Part shown: piece by piece, positions 8,992 through 24,718 of the stretch | Position numbering within the stretch: the stretch's first letter is position 1 | How the letters are laid out: each line of letters starts with the position of its first letter | Virus record (IMG/VR): IMGVR_UViG_3300042562_000926 | Coordinates: 1 to 45,330 of that record | Source of the DNA: a virus | Reading direction: 5' to 3' (one strand) | DNA length: 45,330 nucleotides | The notes under the pieces: model-generated | Told to the model about the DNA's origin: nothing | The model's input: only the letters and a program-made list of their open reading frames with translations | Databases searched by the model: none | Program-made: the position numbers and the translations under genes

Positions 8992-9040
8992 TTATTACCT
9001 AGAGTTACCTTGAATTGCCAAAGGTAATTCTAGGTAATAA
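8992..9040 (+). terminator. Long perfect hairpin after the RuvC-like gene
   Basis: Arms TTATTACCTAGA (8992-9003) plus TTACCTT (9005-9011) pair with AAGGTAA (9021-9027) plus TCTAGGTAATAA (9029-9040); the single non-Watson-Crick position is a G-T wobble. The stem is 20 pairs with a nine-base loop. It ends seven bases past the resolvase stop. It could terminate rightward transcription or be a 3'-protecting structure. Confidence 0.7.
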
Positions 9041-11517: not shown

Positions 11518-11766
11518 TTATTTGATTTTTAGGTTGTAATATTTTTTGATGTCCTCCACTTCAGAAGGTGTTAGTTTATAGGTTTGTTGCGCTTCTTGAA
11601 TGGTTTTAAGCAGTTCTTTATCTGTTATCCAATTACCACGCTCGTTAATGAATTTAATCGCTTGTAGCTTGTTAAATTGCCTTCCCGAATATACTACTAG
11701 GAGCAAGATAACCCCTAGTAGTATAAATAGCCTCGAGAATACTTTATAGGTTTCCTTCGTCTGCAT
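11518..11766 (-). CDS. Small single-pass membrane protein
   Basis: An 82-residue protein with one transmembrane helix at about residues 11-26 (LFILLGVILLLVVYSG) after a short cytoplasmic-like N-terminus, then a charged helical domain. It overlaps the end of the RadC gene by 23 bases. A small single-pass protein in an early operon could act at the host envelope, but no family was recognised. Confidence 0.55.
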   Translation of the reverse strand: MQTKETYKVFSRLFILLGVILLLVVYSGRQFNKLQAIKFINERGNWITDKELLKTIQEAQQTYKLTPSEVEDIKKYYNLKIK

Positions 11767-18523: not shown

Positions 18524-19062
18524 TATAGGGCTACTTGTTTTAGTTCAAATTCCTTAACTATCTCAATCAATGGAAAGCCTTGTCTGTCATCTACAAATGT
18601 GTCTAAAAAAGCATCTGTAATTTTCGGCAATGGCTCTCCTGCTAATTTACATAAATTAATTGCATAATACTGCTTCCAATAGAAGAACTGGCGTGTAGAA
18701 TTCCTTCCACCCATCTTTTGATGATATACTGCCGTTGACTTTAGCTTTGCCTGCCAAGCGTTAATTTCTTCTTTAACTCCTGCAAGAGATGGCTTTTTCA
18801 TAAAATCAATAAAGCCTTTTTCAGAAAGATAGGTCCCTAGATCAATGTCATCACAATTTGGGACGTCAGGGTTTTGATTGCCTAATGTCTTGATTAGCAT
18901 GTCGGTTGTTGGTTTGCTTAAGTCTTTCCACCATCGTTGTAGTGAGGGCATTAATTGTTTTTCGTCCATTGTTTCTAGCGTAGGCAGAAACCATTCAGGC
19001 ACTTGGTTTGGTGCTTCTAACAAGGCTTTCTTGTAGAAATCGTAGTTTGGTGTTTGTTCCAT
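18523..19062 (-). CDS. Hypothetical protein of the replication operon
   Basis: A 179-residue helical protein rich in Trp, Lys and Pro. It has no recognised domain. It lies two genes downstream of DnaB with stop-start overlaps on both sides, so it is translated together with the replication proteins and could be a helicase partner or loader; that is inference from position only. Confidence 0.55.
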   Translation of the reverse strand: MEQTPNYDFYKKALLEAPNQVPEWFLPTLETMDEKQLMPSLQRWWKDLSKPTTDMLIKTLGNQNPDVPNCDDIDLGTYLSEKGFIDFMKKPSLAGVKEEINAWQAKLKSTAVYHQKMGGRNSTRQFFYWKQYYAINLCKLAGEPLPKITDAFLDTFVDDRQGFPLIEIVKEFELKQVAL

Positions 19063-19436
19063 TACATTAATTGTGTTATAGTTTTATTATTAAATTTTTC
19101 GCTTATTCCAATCCAATTAGATACGTCCTCTGCATTTGCCAATGTTACTAGCTCATACGCTGAAACATCTAGTTTGTTAGCACGAATATACTGCATTACT
19201 GCCATAATATTAGCAGCCTCCCCTTGCCTATATGTTCCCACAATAGCCTCATGGATAGCTTGTAGCTTAGGATATTTGCTAAATTTCTCGTTGTCAATCA
19301 ACTCCACCATCTTCCGGCAAAGGTCAGCATCAAACATGCAGTTGTATAATACCCATCTTGCAGGATTACCTTTGATAGATGTCTTTTGTAACGTAAACTG
19401 CGGAGATAAAGTCTCCCAATATTGATTAGGTGTCAT
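19062..19436 (-). CDS. Solitary DnaB N-terminal-domain-like protein
   Basis: A 124-residue protein with no ATPase part. The segment LYNCMFDADLCRKMVELID, then YPKLQAIHEAIVGTYRQG, NIMAVMQYIRANKLD and AYELVTLAN follows the helical order of the DnaB N-terminal domain (first helix pair, HxxIxxAIxxLYxxG-like helix, VxxxLxxxG helix). In DnaB this domain mediates hexamer dimerisation and contact with primase. Being encoded three bases downstream of dnaB, it may be a helicase modulator or loader; the assignment is by pattern and needs structure comparison. Confidence 0.5.
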   Translation of the reverse strand: MTPNQYWETLSPQFTLQKTSIKGNPARWVLYNCMFDADLCRKMVELIDNEKFSKYPKLQAIHEAIVGTYRQGEAANIMAVMQYIRANKLDVSAYELVTLANAEDVSNWIGISEKFNNKTITQLM

Positions 19437-19438
19437 AA

Positions 19439-20794
19439 TTAAAATATGTCGTCTTTAGCAAACCCATGAGACATGTTAATACCTGGATCTGAATTGTAAA
19501 ATTGGTTAGTTCCCATATTGCAATATCCATAAACTACAATCTGAGCATCGCCATCCCTATTCTTCTCAATGTGATACCCAATTCTATTTCTAAAAGATAC
19601 TCCATTCTCGTCCCTTGCCTCACTATCGTACACTTCTGGTCGATGCAGTAATATTACCGTATCTGCAGCCTCTTCAATACTCCCCGAATCTTTCAGATGG
19701 TAGATCTTGGGTTCTTTGTTGTCTGTTTTTACCGACTCTCTGTTTATCTGACACAAAAGAACGATGCAGATGTCTAGTCTTACTGCCAATGCTTTAAGTT
19801 CATTCACAATCTCGCCTAGCGCATTTGCCTTGCTCCCTTTACTCTCGTCAGTCTTCATAATTTGCAGGTAATCAATCACTACCAACTCACATTCAGACTC
19901 AAAACGCATCTTTGACAATACCCCTCGAAGCCTAAATAAGTCAATTGCTCCTGTATATTCCCTCACAAAACTATTATTCTCTATCTTATAGGCTGCATTA
20001 ACAAGCAAATCCCTTTCCTTATCGTTAATATGTCCGCTTTTAAGACGCTGATAATGAATGTCAGTCTCTATCGACAATTCTCTTCTATTCATTTGCGCCC
20101 TAGTCATCTCCATTGAAACAAACCCACATTTAGTCCCTCTCTTTTGAAGAGTAGCAGCTACCCACATAGCAAAAGCTGTCTTTCCTTGTCCACTACGTGC
20201 GCCAATAATGTTTAATGTACCCTTCTCATATCCTCCGTTCAAATGTTTGTCTAAGTTTACTAACCCTAATGGAATTGCATTTGTCGACTTGCCATCTGCA
20301 GCAGCAAAAACTTCACTAATAGTAGAATGGATCTCATGTTCCTTTGTAGTAATAGAAACCCCAATTGTGTTGATGCGTTCTAGCTGCGTTATCGCCATTG
20401 AACAAGCTCCTCTGCTGTCTGCCGTTAAGTCCATTGAGTTTTCAGAGATCATACTTGCTATCCTGCCTAATTCTCGATGTCTGTAAAGCTCCACCAATGC
20501 ATCATATTGATGCTCAAAGCTTCCAGTAGTTTGCGCAACTATCTTAAACTTATTGATAGTAGCAGAATTTACGTTAAATCCTTTCTTTTTTAACTCAATA
20601 GATAGATAAATAGCCTCCGGAACAGAAGTAATATCCTCAAATTTCTTGCAGATGCTCCATATAGCCTTGGACAATGGACTAGTAAAGATATTATCATCAA
20701 TTGCACCTAAAGCCTTGTTAAACAATGTTCTTGAAGATAATAAATGTCCTATTAATACTGTTTCTACCTCCTCGGAGTTTAGTTGATTATTCAT
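19439..20794 (-). CDS. dnaB: DnaB-type replicative helicase
   Basis: A 451-residue hexameric helicase. The N-terminal domain (residues 5-105) matches DnaB_N, the linker follows, then the RecA-like motor: Walker A GARSGQGKT at 198-206, a VSMEM block (226-230, the H1a region), Walker B ELVVIDYLQIM with Asp308, and LLCQINR with KDSGSIEEAADTVILLHR as the downstream sensor and arginine-finger region. All key residues are present, so it should be active. It unwinds phage DNA at the fork. It overlaps the end of the upstream initiator gene by eight bases. No separate primase was seen in the window. Confidence 0.92.
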   Translation of the reverse strand: MNNQLNSEEVETVLIGHLLSSRTLFNKALGAIDDNIFTSPLSKAIWSICKKFEDITSVPEAIYLSIELKKKGFNVNSATINKFKIVAQTTGSFEHQYDALVELYRHRELGRIASMISENSMDLTADSRGACSMAITQLERINTIGVSITTKEHEIHSTISEVFAAADGKSTNAIPLGLVNLDKHLNGGYEKGTLNIIGARSGQGKTAFAMWVAATLQKRGTKCGFVSMEMTRAQMNRRELSIETDIHYQRLKSGHINDKERDLLVNAAYKIENNSFVREYTGAIDLFRLRGVLSKMRFESECELVVIDYLQIMKTDESKGSKANALGEIVNELKALAVRLDICIVLLCQINRESVKTDNKEPKIYHLKDSGSIEEAADTVILLHRPEVYDSEARDENGVSFRNRIGYHIEKNRDGDAQIVVYGYCNMGTNQFYNSDPGINMSHGFAKDDIF

Positions 20795-21518
20795 AGACTC
20801 TTCTTTTTGGTTCTGATGTTGCAGGTTTATTTTTTAACAAATGCATTGGTAGCCACGCTCTAAAATGTTGGCGCATGTCTGTTTCGTTTGCCCAAGTTTT
20901 ATGCATGCCCGAATTATCAAAAACAAATTTGTCAAGTAAAATATAAATATCCCTATTTTGTTTATAGTTATTTTTTGCTAATACGTCAATAAATGTTTCA
21001 TCGTTCTTTAATTTTTTTAAAACTTCATTACAGTTTTTAGAATCTATTAAAGTATTGATAAGTGTCGACGTTGGCGTACTCTCTTCTTCTTCTCCTCTCT
21101 TCTCTTCTCTTCTCTTCTCTTCTATATTGCTTTCATTCGCTTTCATTTCGCTAACCGAAAGTAAAGCGGTCGGTTTTTGTCGCTGAGTATCAGCATGTTT
21201 AGACTTTGGCCTTCCCCCTAATTTGCCATTATCTGCATTTGTCTTACTAAGTTTATCCCTTTCTTCAAGTTGCTCGTCTAAAAATTTAATTCTAATTAAA
21301 CCATCGTCGTTTACCAAAATAAACCGTTCGGTTAAATTCGCTAACCGTTCGCTTTTATATCGTTTCTTTATATCATCAATAGTCAAAGCGCCTTGACGAT
21401 GCCAATACGTAGCGCATATATTTATAAATAACCCTTGGGTTTCCAAATCTTCATAAACAATATCGCCTGTAAGCCATTCTGCTGAATAAAATTTAAAATA
21501 AGGTAAATTTTTAGCCAT
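20787..21518 (-). CDS. Replication initiator-like protein (DUF4373/Lin1244-type N-terminal domain)
   Basis: A 243-residue protein. Residues 1-95 (MAKNLPYFKFYSAEWLTGDI, then EDLETQGLFINICATYW) are the typical start of Lin1244/Lin1753-type winged-helix proteins that precede helicases in phage replication modules. A low-complexity linker rich in Glu, Lys and Arg follows (residues 133-147), then a C-terminal domain with HFRAWLPMHL like DnaD/DnaT-type helicase-interaction ends. ATG 21518 matches the family start; the frame is open further to 21656, but that start lies in a promoter box. It lies directly before dnaB and probably delivers it to DNA. Confidence 0.75.
   Translation of the reverse strand: MAKNLPYFKFYSAEWLTGDIVYEDLETQGLFINICATYWHRQGALTIDDIKKRYKSERLANLTERFILVNDDGLIRIKFLDEQLEERDKLSKTNADNGKLGGRPKSKHADTQRQKPTALLSVSEMKANESNIEEKRREEKRGEEEESTPTSTLINTLIDSKNCNEVLKKLKNDETFIDVLAKNNYKQNRDIYILLDKFVFDNSGMHKTWANETDMRQHFRAWLPMHLLKNKPATSEPKRRVYE
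21096..21120 (-). repeat. Pentanucleotide microsatellite in the initiator gene
   Basis: Five perfect head-to-tail copies of TCTCT on the + strand encode the Glu/Lys/Arg linker of the initiator protein. The unit is not a multiple of three, so gain or loss of one unit would shift the frame and cut off the C-terminal helicase-interaction domain. Confidence 0.85.
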
Positions 21519-21535
21519 AATACATTTAATAACAA

Positions 21536-21608
21536 AGCCTTGAAAAACAGAGTTAGGATTATCAGTCCCTAGAAACGTGTAGTTCGTTTCGCTCTGCCTT
21601 TCAAGGCT
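21536..21608 (-). ncRNA. Structured leader element: 17-pair stem capped by a three-way junction
   Basis: The arms 21536-21552 and 21592-21608 pair over all 17 positions (15 Watson-Crick and two adjacent G-U pairs when read leftward). Inside lie two hairpins: 21572-21577 with 21585-21590 (GAAACG/CGTTTC, loop of seven) and 21554-21558 with 21567-21571 (loop of eight, one G-U). Only positions 21553 and 21591 are unpaired at the junction. It lies between the promoter at 21654 and the initiator start codon, so it would be part of the mRNA leader. No match to a known riboswitch or ribozyme was recognised. Confidence 0.65.
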
Positions 21609-21653
21609 CTTAATTTCTTTACTACATTTTAAGCAGTTGATTAGTCTGCTTGG

Positions 21654-21683
21654 CAAACATAATTAAAAATGACAACCATCCAA
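21654..21683 (-). promoter_or_regulatory. Promoter of the replication operon
   Basis: Read leftward, TTG (21683-21681), a 19-base spacer and TATGTTTG (21661-21654) fully match the Bacteroidota consensus. Transcripts would start about 21647 and carry a leader of about 130 bases before ATG 21518. A small hairpin AAGCAG/CTGCTT (21631-21651) lies at the predicted 5' end. Confidence 0.65.
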
Positions 21684-21700
21684 ATAATTGTTAATAAAAT

Positions 21701-23566
21701 TTATGTCCGAACATTAATTTCCACATCTTCATAATAAACCCTTCCATCACGTCCTCTTTTTAAAACCCTGGTAGTCAATACTTGTTGCGACTCTGTTACT
21801 TTTTCTCTTGCTCTGCGTAAGTCTTCCTCATAAAGCTCACAACCAATCATAGCATCTGCAACGTCGGTATTTAACTGCAAAAAGTTCTCTAAATCACGCA
21901 TAATTAGCTCAAAGTCCTGCCGATCTACATGACTTAATAAGAACTTAAAGAAAATATCATTAGCCCTAGCGCCAGTTTTGTTTTTGTACCAACCATATTT
22001 CCTAGAAGTCTCATATTTAATTCCAAGGTTAATCGGTTTTTTGGCAAGTAGGTGCAAAGCTCCTGCATCTTTGTATTTAGTAAAGGCTACCTCTCCTCTG
22101 TTCATCTCAAGCATACTTGGTGCGCCAAAATAAAAGTTTTGTAACATCGTTTTTTGTTGATAGGCAAAGTCAGCATCCATTGTTCGATCAAGATAGATGG
22201 CTACATATTTTTGCTCCACCCTATTTTTGATGACAAGGCAATCACTAGAACCTTCGTCAATATCGGCATCTCCATAAGGTATTGGATCATTACCTGCTAT
22301 GTACGGATAAGTCAATTGTCCTTTTAGTCCCCCTTTTGGAAGTTGGGTAATAAAAAAATTACCTTTATTGTTAGGCGTAGCCACAATGTCGCCATGCATA
22401 CCATACTCTAAGTCATAAGTAAAGCATGGCAAGACACTTTCAGCCCTGTTAAATATCTCACGAGAACGCACCTCCACCTTTTTCATGATGTTTTCAGGCA
22501 ACTTGCCTTTACCGGAAGAAGAAACTACCTCTTCAATGGTCAATGGGTAGTTCTTGATACGAGCCTCTAACCTACTTTTGTCCTCTAGCTTTTCTAATAA
22601 GTCTCTTTCACGTAATATAACCTCGGTAGCAAACTTCTCATTGTTCCATCCGTTTTGTGTACCTGGGATCTGCGTTATCTGACCTTCTTCATTTTCATAT
22701 TGTGTCATCGCCATCCATGCAGGAACCATAATTACTACGGTCCTACTTGCATCTTCCCCTACCTTGATAATATCACGAAGTGCATTTAGACTAGCTTGCG
22801 GAATGTCCTTTTCTACCGTTCCTCCCCACAAAAGATTACCAACCCTCAACATACCTTTCTCTAAAGTAGGATATAAAGAATCAAGTAAGGCAACCCTATT
22901 AGTATGCAAAGGAAACTCATCAAGAAAAACATACAGCATCCTTGCTACTGAGAAAGAGCTAGGATTTTTTACAGTCTCGGTACAGAAAATATCAGGAAAC
23001 ACAGCCTTTTCGTCCCCATCTTTAGTGACTATATTCTGTATTACTTGCAGGTAAGAATGGTTTTTAGTTTGCGACAACGATTTCTTAGTGAGCGCAATAT
23101 CAGGATCTAAGCCATCCCAAAAAGGAAGCGTCTTCTCTTTAAACATCTTACTAATACGATCAAGGTCGCAACTAGTCATCCCTGTATGGCAACCAGGATT
23201 AGTCTGTATAAAGTAAAAAGGAAGACAGCCTGCCCCAATAGACGTTAATCCAAACTCTCGTCGTTTAACAACCCCCACATCATACCTTTTGTCAAATCCA
23301 TACTTAATCTGCTCAAATACTATCTCATCAGCCTCTCGCCAATGCGGACGAATAGGAGATCCATAGTTATCTTGAATCCAACCCTCTTGAATGTAAAAAT
23401 AGTGCATGCCCGATAGTCCTGCATAACCCTCTATCCACCTTTTTTCTTGAATATCCCAATATTTGCGCCTTTCAGCACCAGTATTAAAAGTAGGCTTAGG
23501 CACTCTGACATATTTGGCCGGCCTTTCGTTAATGTGATTATGTATATGGAAAGGAGTTTCTATCAT
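21701..23566 (-). CDS. terL: Terminase large subunit
   Basis: A 621-residue packaging motor. The ATPase half has a divergent Walker A, KRREFGLTS at residues 101-109, and a clear Walker B MLYVFLDEF with Asp216 and Glu217. The C-terminal nuclease half has acidic positions in AGNDPIPYGDAD, AIYLDRTMD and DVADAMIGCEL, as expected for the RNase H-like fold that cuts concatemers. The length is within the usual range of phage terminases. It is encoded leftward, upstream of the initiator and dnaB genes and opposite to the portal, which is an unusual place. The small subunit is not identified with certainty. Confidence 0.88.
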   Translation of the reverse strand: MIETPFHIHNHINERPAKYVRVPKPTFNTGAERRKYWDIQEKRWIEGYAGLSGMHYFYIQEGWIQDNYGSPIRPHWREADEIVFEQIKYGFDKRYDVGVVKRREFGLTSIGAGCLPFYFIQTNPGCHTGMTSCDLDRISKMFKEKTLPFWDGLDPDIALTKKSLSQTKNHSYLQVIQNIVTKDGDEKAVFPDIFCTETVKNPSSFSVARMLYVFLDEFPLHTNRVALLDSLYPTLEKGMLRVGNLLWGGTVEKDIPQASLNALRDIIKVGEDASRTVVIMVPAWMAMTQYENEEGQITQIPGTQNGWNNEKFATEVILRERDLLEKLEDKSRLEARIKNYPLTIEEVVSSSGKGKLPENIMKKVEVRSREIFNRAESVLPCFTYDLEYGMHGDIVATPNNKGNFFITQLPKGGLKGQLTYPYIAGNDPIPYGDADIDEGSSDCLVIKNRVEQKYVAIYLDRTMDADFAYQQKTMLQNFYFGAPSMLEMNRGEVAFTKYKDAGALHLLAKKPINLGIKYETSRKYGWYKNKTGARANDIFFKFLLSHVDRQDFELIMRDLENFLQLNTDVADAMIGCELYEEDLRRAREKVTESQQVLTTRVLKRGRDGRVYYEDVEINVRT

Positions 23567-23899: not shown

Positions 23900-24718
23900 T
23901 TATGAATTTTTAAACCAAACGAATGGAACGTTGGCTTGGTTAGTTGTTGAGTATGCACCAAATGGATTTGGCAATGCTGTAAATGTTAAGCCTTTTAGAA
24001 TTGCAGTTACCGTTGTTGCTACCAATGTTGCGTTACCGATACCAGCCAATGATGATATACCTGAACTTGTTACGCTGATCGTTGCACTACTGAATATAGC
24101 GAACCAATACTTACCCACTGGCAATACTACTGGACTTCCAAGAGTAACGCTCTTAGATCCACTTGAAGTGATGTTGATGTTAGATGCTGATGCTACTAAG
24201 TTGTTAGGCTCACCAAGTGAATTGCTATCGTAGATGCCTATGTTAGCCAATGCACCAGGTACGCCCGATGTAGCAATAAATCCTATATCTGTGATTGTTG
24301 TTGCCTCTGTAAATCGTACTGCTAAAGCATAGATGTTATTCAATACCAATGAACCAGTAGCTAATGAGAAACCCAACTCTGATGGTATGTGCCATCTGTT
24401 CTTGATTCTTAATGGTGATAATGAGCTATCTTGTTTTAAATTTAAAGCAGTCTGTTGAGCAGTACTTACAGGCTTGTTAACATCGCTAGTGTTGTTAACG
24501 TCTCCTAATCCAACTTGTAACTTAGTGACTGAATGGGGATTAGATAAATTGGCAACGTGTGTACTTAAGGCGCTAGATGAAGCAGAATCCCCTTCAGTAA
24601 TAGCCGTTTGCAATGAAGCGGATGTTTTTAACAACAAAGCCTGCAGCGCATTATCATTCTCTAAGCGAATGTTTGCCTCTTTTTTAATGTTTATTCGTAA
24701 TACATCAAGGTCTCTCAT
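23900..24718 (-). CDS. Tail or head fibre protein
   Basis: A 272-residue protein. The N-terminal 60 residues are helical, probably a trimer coiled coil; then comes the fibre repeat motif NPHSVTKLQVGLGDVNNTSD followed by VNKPVSTAQQTAL, known from many phage fibres. The C-terminal 160 residues are Ser, Thr, Gly, Ala-rich beta strands, like receptor-binding domains. It likely makes contact with the host surface. It is read leftward in the same direction as terminase and replication genes, away from the other virion genes. Confidence 0.8.
   Translation of the reverse strand: MRDLDVLRINIKKEANIRLENDNALQALLLKTSASLQTAITEGDSASSSALSTHVANLSNPHSVTKLQVGLGDVNNTSDVNKPVSTAQQTALNLKQDSSLSPLRIKNRWHIPSELGFSLATGSLVLNNIYALAVRFTEATTITDIGFIATSGVPGALANIGIYDSNSLGEPNNLVASASNINITSSGSKSVTLGSPVVLPVGKYWFAIFSSATISVTSSGISSLAGIGNATLVATTVTAILKGLTFTALPNPFGAYSTTNQANVPFVWFKNS

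Follow-up and report, generated by a model that had tools for sequence, protein, structure and literature searches.

The branched hairpin upstream of the replication initiator gene in the window, by which we mean the whole 45,330-nt stretch of viral DNA analyzed here (IMG/VR record IMGVR_UViG_3300042562_000926), is best read as part of the 5′ leader of a replication operon. This leader would be a divergent member of a family of structured leader RNAs and may act as a transcription attenuator gated by a kissing contact within the RNA; judging from sequence, we place this reading as a whole at a probability of about 0.5. The family is large, multicopy, found in flavobacterial phages, absent from Rfam 15, and apparently undescribed. 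A regulatory RNA in the noncoding transcribed leader of the replication operon, belonging to no Rfam family, remains the best class of explanation, as proposed in the preliminary description of this DNA. The leader and the operon behind it comprise the following features.

21681..21684, minus strand: −33 promoter element TTTG, from sequence, with a 19-nt spacer to the −7 box
21654..21661, minus strand: −7 box TATGTTTG (consensus TAnnTTTG), from sequence
21631..21651, minus strand: hairpin A, AAGCAG-ACTAATCAA-CTGCTT, at the transcript 5′ end, 2 nt past the −7 box
21621..21626, minus strand: TGTAGT, candidate 5′ contact partner of the loop ACTACA at 21583-21578
21612..21620, minus strand: linker AAAGAAATT, resembling by eye the AAGAAATTTTA linker of many family members
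21534..21610, minus strand: hairpin B, branched, a 19-bp stem closing on two hairpins, from folding
21608-21592 paired with 21552-21536, minus strand: the 17-bp core of the hairpin B stem as first described, from folding
21572..21590, minus strand: inner hairpin 1, GAAACG-AACTACA-CGTTTC, from folding
21554..21571, minus strand: inner hairpin 2, TAGGG-ACTGATAA-TCCTA, from folding
21528..21536, minus strand: U-rich tract TTTGTTATT, preceded by GGC and resembling a terminator except for an interruption, from comparison of the sequence with the family profile
20787..21518, minus strand: replication initiator or primosomal-type protein, 243 aa (PHROG 29280 and 9327, weak DUF7833)
19439..20794, minus strand: DnaB-like replicative helicase, the next operon gene (Pfam DnaB_C, 5e-56; PHROG 19)

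The window promoter (TTTG, 19 nt, TATGTTTG) matches the flavobacterial consensus. Since the flavobacterial sigma-A box lies at −12 to −5 (PMC9723704), the transcript is predicted to start at about 21649, inside or just before hairpin A. Upstream, a terminase-like ORF (PHROG 6681) ends at 21701. The element had been placed between a consensus promoter and the initiator ATG, within the transcribed leader, and this position was confirmed, the promoter being of the Bacteroidetes type. Seven initiator homologues align from the Met of 21518 without an upstream extension, and MAK.LPYF.F is the N-terminus common to initiators of Cellulophaga, Flavobacterium, and Leeuwenhoekiella phages. The frame that stays open back to 21656 is therefore not coding, and an N-terminal extension of the initiator through the element, which the preliminary description had considered, was ruled out. 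Nearby, a separate 124-aa gene (19062-19436) matching the DnaB N-terminal domain lies beside the DnaB-like helicase, whose own match to that domain is only weak, and a tail-fibre-like repeat protein (23900-24718, minus strand) is encoded directly beside the terminase-type gene.

The minus-strand segment 21608-21536 folds with a minimum free energy of −32.7 kcal/mol (z −7.3), compared to −29.2 on the opposite strand; none of 200 dinucleotide shuffles was as stable, and among all 75-mers of the window the element ranks second in stability. Refolding exactly reproduced the 17-bp stem reported earlier (15 Watson-Crick and two adjacent G-U pairs), its 6- and 5-bp hairpins, and its two unpaired junction bases, and folding of a longer leader RNA added two pairs to the stem, out to 21610/21534. 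The core stem ends 17 nt before the ATG (11-25 nt in relatives), and the U-tract TTTGTTATT carries T at 7 of 9 positions, with one G interrupting. Hairpin A was absent from the first description; its 6-bp stem arises at that place in 1.8% of shuffles (p = 0.018). The 6-bp TGTAGT/ACTACA duplex is worth −6.4 kcal, and its complementarity has p = 0.22 within an 85-nt flank and p = 0.042 within the 44-nt 5′ part. TGTAGT sits approximately where other family members make their contact, but not clearly in a hairpin loop. Between the loops of inner hairpin 2 and hairpin A there is a weak ATCA/TGAT match (4 bp, only −2.5 kcal).

Two further repeats in the window were noted in passing. The most stable 75-mer contains a 20-nt inverted repeat (8992-9040, 95% complementary) between converging gene sets; it adjoins another hairpin with a T-run and is likely a bidirectional terminator. 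A minus-strand reading frame holds a perfect 12-bp inverted repeat with a 12-nt loop at 11690-11725.

At the gathering score, Rfam 15 gave no match in the window or over the leaders of 38 family loci; a permissive Rfam scan of the window site returned chance matches only, and ARAGORN predicted no tRNA or tmRNA gene in the window. These results agree with the earlier failure to recognize a riboswitch or tRNA. Similar DNA in annotated phages did not rise above chance, and single-sequence protein scans returned one near-identical relative only, IMGVR_UViG_3300020044_008671. This sister phage is identical to the window phage over the leader, so there are no paired changes to count in the window leader itself; the longest mismatch-free run between the two is 776 nt. 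As the leader identity may come from recent recombination, it was kept out of the evidence. A pattern search of viral contigs for window-like 19-bp stems found the known sister only, and a search of open-access papers found no description of a kissing-hairpin leader. As a separate observation, the DUF805b RNA motif (RF02914) occurs in flavobacterial phage DNA (L008:800-834, L079:601-635).

The family emerged from relatives of the initiator in viral contigs: upstream DNA was readable at about 230 loci, and its sequence was distinct at 120. In 47 of these 120 the initiator follows a gap of at least 60 nt, which in most cases contains a strong hairpin whose end lies 11-25 nt from the ATG of the initiator. 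With hairpin B held fixed and the 5′ flank shuffled, complementarity between the loop and the 5′ flank reached p ≤ 0.05 in 35 of the 47 gap loci compared to 3 of 72 loci without a gap. Toward the 5′ end, the partner of the B loop is usually the loop of a small hairpin, hairpin A, and the two loops are complementary over 6-11 bp. About 64 distinct members follow one plan: TAnnTTTG, hairpin A at approximately +1, a short linker, hairpin B, a U-tract, and the ATG. Where an initiator abuts another gene, the RNA often lies 170-650 nt upstream, before the preceding small gene. Initiator loci totalling 1.08 Mb were scanned, with strand taken into account, for pairs of kissing hairpins. At scores of at least 28, 46 matches lay directly before an initiator, 75 at other sense-strand positions, and 6 on the antisense strand. 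Many of the other sense-strand matches are this same RNA before an upstream small gene, which identifies it as an operon leader. The descriptor itself requires complementarity, making counts of complementary loops among its own matches circular, whereas the shuffle, strand, and position controls are independent of it.

The promoter and the 3′ edge of the RNA are equally regular. TAnnTTTG lies at most 60 nt upstream of hairpin A in 55 of 68 descriptor members (chance, 7%), mostly at a distance of 3-7 nt and within about 9 nt in 43 of the 55. Counting from the final G or C of hairpin B, positions +1 to +6 are T in 70, 87, 97, 89, 92, and 70% of 63 members, a profile by which the U-tract is terminator-like. 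A stable stem with a GC-rich base followed by a T run, as expected of a terminator, is present across the family and in part in the window; in hairpin B, some of the U-tract is paired with As at the foot of the stem, and not every member has its U-tract directly after the hairpin. Internal loops in hairpin B recur, about 20 members having TGAA/GGAT-like loops (tandem G-A), 9 having AGTA/GAA (loop-E-like), and the rest other forms. Among the 64 retained members there are 56 distinct kissing sequences, with a mean of 7.9 bp, and in L027, L062, and L161 both 7-nt loops pair completely. With internal loops differing between subclasses and kissing sequences this diverse, a conserved ligand core of the riboswitch type is absent.

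Covariation was counted within one subclass only, because MAFFT does not line up the loops across subclasses. In an alignment of 13 members, 91.3% of cells were paired in four helices, kissing helix included; double-sided changes occurred in 27 of 29 pairs, again including kissing pairs, and the covariation score was 0.648, compared to at most 0.18 for slid partners. As these members came from the complementarity-requiring descriptor, the pair counts mainly document variation. The kissing helix alone was 74.5% paired, because in some rows of the sequence alignment it is displaced by one column. The paired changes in relatives that had been named as a check on the fold are thus present at the family level. 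Counts of G-U against A-C in B stems are unusable, as the descriptor admits only G-U.

The RNA occurs in the cultured phages phi19:1, phi10:1, and morran9-1, and whole phage contigs carry one to three copies, each with a different kissing sequence. Downstream genes include the initiator, an SNF2-type helicase, an ERF recombinase, a DNA methyltransferase, DUF6378, and RNase H, and HNH and GIY-YIG homing-endonuclease genes are also preceded by the RNA. Judged by these neighbors, the leader RNA is not tied to replication initiators. Because it precedes so many unrelated genes, autoregulation by the initiator, one role suggested earlier, is not supported as its specific function. Homing-endonuclease genes with their own leader copy lie at L279:9342, L289:14011 (minus strand), L296:13242, and L300:5836 (minus strand), and these copies look as though each gene travelled together with its promoter and leader. 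In bacteria, 4 of 400 genomes of one flavobacterial family matched, two of them strongly, and a host chromosomal element was rejected on this count.

An alternative hypothesis is that the element acts as DNA, serving as an initiator binding site, a single-strand origin, or a bidirectional terminator for the upstream terminase gene. It is palindromic and adjoins the initiator gene, as such a site might, but the same element stands before helicase, methyltransferase, recombinase, and homing-endonuclease genes, and its strand bias, the promoter at +1, the recurrent RNA-type internal loops, and the poorer fold of the plus strand make a DNA-level site highly improbable. The single-strand DNA replication signal considered in the preliminary description is likewise not supported, since the element starts where transcription does, has a U-tract behind it, and scores much more frequently on the sense strand.

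Whether the window leader belongs to this family was judged by position and architecture, and on those grounds it is probably a divergent, branched member. It keeps the promoter, the +1 hairpin, the linker motif AAAGAAATT, and a strong hairpin B before a homologous gene. It is longer than its relatives (133 nt compared to 91-114), its hairpin B is a three-way junction, and its 6-bp contact is with the linker instead of the A loop. Relatives usually bear an internal loop in hairpin B; the three-way junction, central to the earlier account, is therefore not essential, and the hallmark is instead the loop contact with the transcript 5′ end together with the terminator-like U-tract. Branching does exist elsewhere in the family, as hairpin B of L024 is also branched and has an A-loop partner (ATCGCAC/GTGCGA). 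A covariance model (R1), built for the internal-loop subclass without kissing pairs, recovered members beyond its training set, among them L094, L028, L017, L040, and L020. It gave no match in G000 or G001 and did not detect the window leader, which the kissing descriptor likewise misses. Both misses, and a hairpin B that is branched and not of the internal-loop type, would fit an unrelated hairpin merely occupying the same place; we regard this as improbable given the same order of promoter, hairpin, linker, hairpin, and ATG before a homologous gene and the several matching details.

By sequence comparison, transcription in the family is set to begin at hairpin A, with the linker, hairpin B, and its U-tract following, close before the start codon. 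We propose that hairpin B acts as an intrinsic terminator in the 5′ untranslated region, so that some transcripts end before the gene. Contact between the 5′ end and the B loop could then set the frequency of termination by speeding, holding, or delaying hairpin B while the polymerase is in the U-tract. On paper the contact leaves the B stem intact, such that faster folding would mean more termination and delay would mean less. Alternatively, the kissing contact may hold the RNA 5′ end for a protein. Candidate tuners of the contact are a phage protein, a host factor, or none, in which case the setting would be a fixed gain. Granted that the window leader is a family member, we consider attenuation at even odds or slightly better.

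Several members point to a second kind of output. In L020, L040, L185, L186, L141, and L086-type leaders the A-loop sequence appears once more, as a third copy, between hairpin B and the ATG, so the B loop could pair with either hairpin A or the start region; in such small subclasses, pairing of the B loop with the start-codon copy instead would act on translation. This suggests that the kissing contact works as a switch whose output can take two forms. Complementarity between the loop and the start codon reached p ≤ 0.05 in 5 of 63 members, and start-codon occlusion was rejected on this count as a general mechanism and retained for subclasses. Separately, L086, L089-L091, and L131 carry a 9-nt CGTGCAACA at the leader 5′ end and again directly before the initiator ATG, with its complement in a hairpin loop, an arrangement that clearly qualifies as a candidate start-codon switch.

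Another reading is an element for translation or mRNA stability, with hairpin A capping the 5′ end and hairpin B bordering the ribosome footprint, so that the mRNA is protected or initiation is limited. Hairpin B does lie 11-25 nt before the ATG in all 27 members placed directly before an initiator, the subclasses with start-codon complementarity fit, and phage T4 provides a precedent in homing-endonuclease and late genes that are restrained by ribosome-site hairpins (PMC2988022). However, that complementarity is not general, hairpin B lies 41-53 nt from the ATG in one large subclass, and the U-tract is left unexplained, such that we consider this explanation unlikely.

The kissing-gated attenuator was also weighed against processive antitermination, in which the leader would bind RNA polymerase and cause it to ignore downstream terminators, as do the put RNAs of HK022. 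The position at the very 5′ end of early-type operons, the several copies per phage before different genes, and a conserved shape with a different loop sequence in each copy would all be compatible with this role. Yet right in front of the gene hairpin B runs into a canonical terminator U-tract, a feature not known from put elements, and single homing-endonuclease genes with their own copy would gain little; we therefore consider antitermination quite unlikely. Still harder to credit is a stand-alone small RNA, in which the terminated leader, made up of the 5′ hairpin and the terminator and locked by the kissing contact, would itself be the product and act elsewhere. Promoter and terminator do frame about 90-110 nt, and the terminated transcript would be compact with protected ends, but the RNA in every case directly precedes a gene read in its own direction, its seed-like loops are tied up in the contact, and, as every copy has its own loop sequence, there is no shared target.

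More broadly, we tentatively suggest, at somewhat less than even odds, that flavobacterial phages control many early genes at once through a single RNA architecture, which would work as a modular expression valve linked to the promoter. A loop formed by the first nucleotides of the transcript would gate a terminator about 90 nt downstream or, in subclasses, the start codon; the kissing sequence would drift yet stay complementary, and the cassette would spread with genes, homing endonucleases included. If true, the 5′ end of an RNA would gate a terminator in that same molecule with no competing antiterminator helix involved. The hosts of flavobacterial phages lack Shine-Dalgarno sites, and such a valve would explain how early-gene expression is set in them. 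Structured cis-regulatory RNAs have rarely been described in Bacteroidota phages, and the presence of this family in cultured phages makes it directly testable. It also offers a handle for locating promoters and operon starts in uncultured phages.

Among known systems, the attenuators of pT181 repC, riboswitches, and ribosomal-protein leaders likewise place a terminator-like hairpin and U-tract between promoter and first gene, with an upstream RNA segment able to contact the terminator hairpin. In contrast to these, the contact here is loop to loop, the terminator stem stays intact, there is no usual alternative antiterminator helix, no ligand pocket is conserved across subclasses, and no antisense RNA was identified. 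The pseudoknots of IncI/IncB rep leaders and the kissing loops of ColE1 likewise involve, by general knowledge, a loop-loop or pseudoknot contact in a replication-gene leader, and complete pairing of two 7-nt loops, as in the three members named above, is also found in ColE1 RNAI/RNAII. The present contact differs in lying within one RNA, and the element in not being confined to replication initiators. Like HK022 put RNA, as generally known, the family consists of structured RNAs at the 5′ end of phage early transcripts, present in several copies; to our knowledge, put has neither a terminator U-tract nor a kissing contact to a +1 hairpin. Leader hairpins immediately before the homing-endonuclease genes of T4 are placed as they are here, but those hairpins occlude the Shine-Dalgarno site on longer transcripts (PMC2988022), whereas the RNA described here starts at its own promoter.
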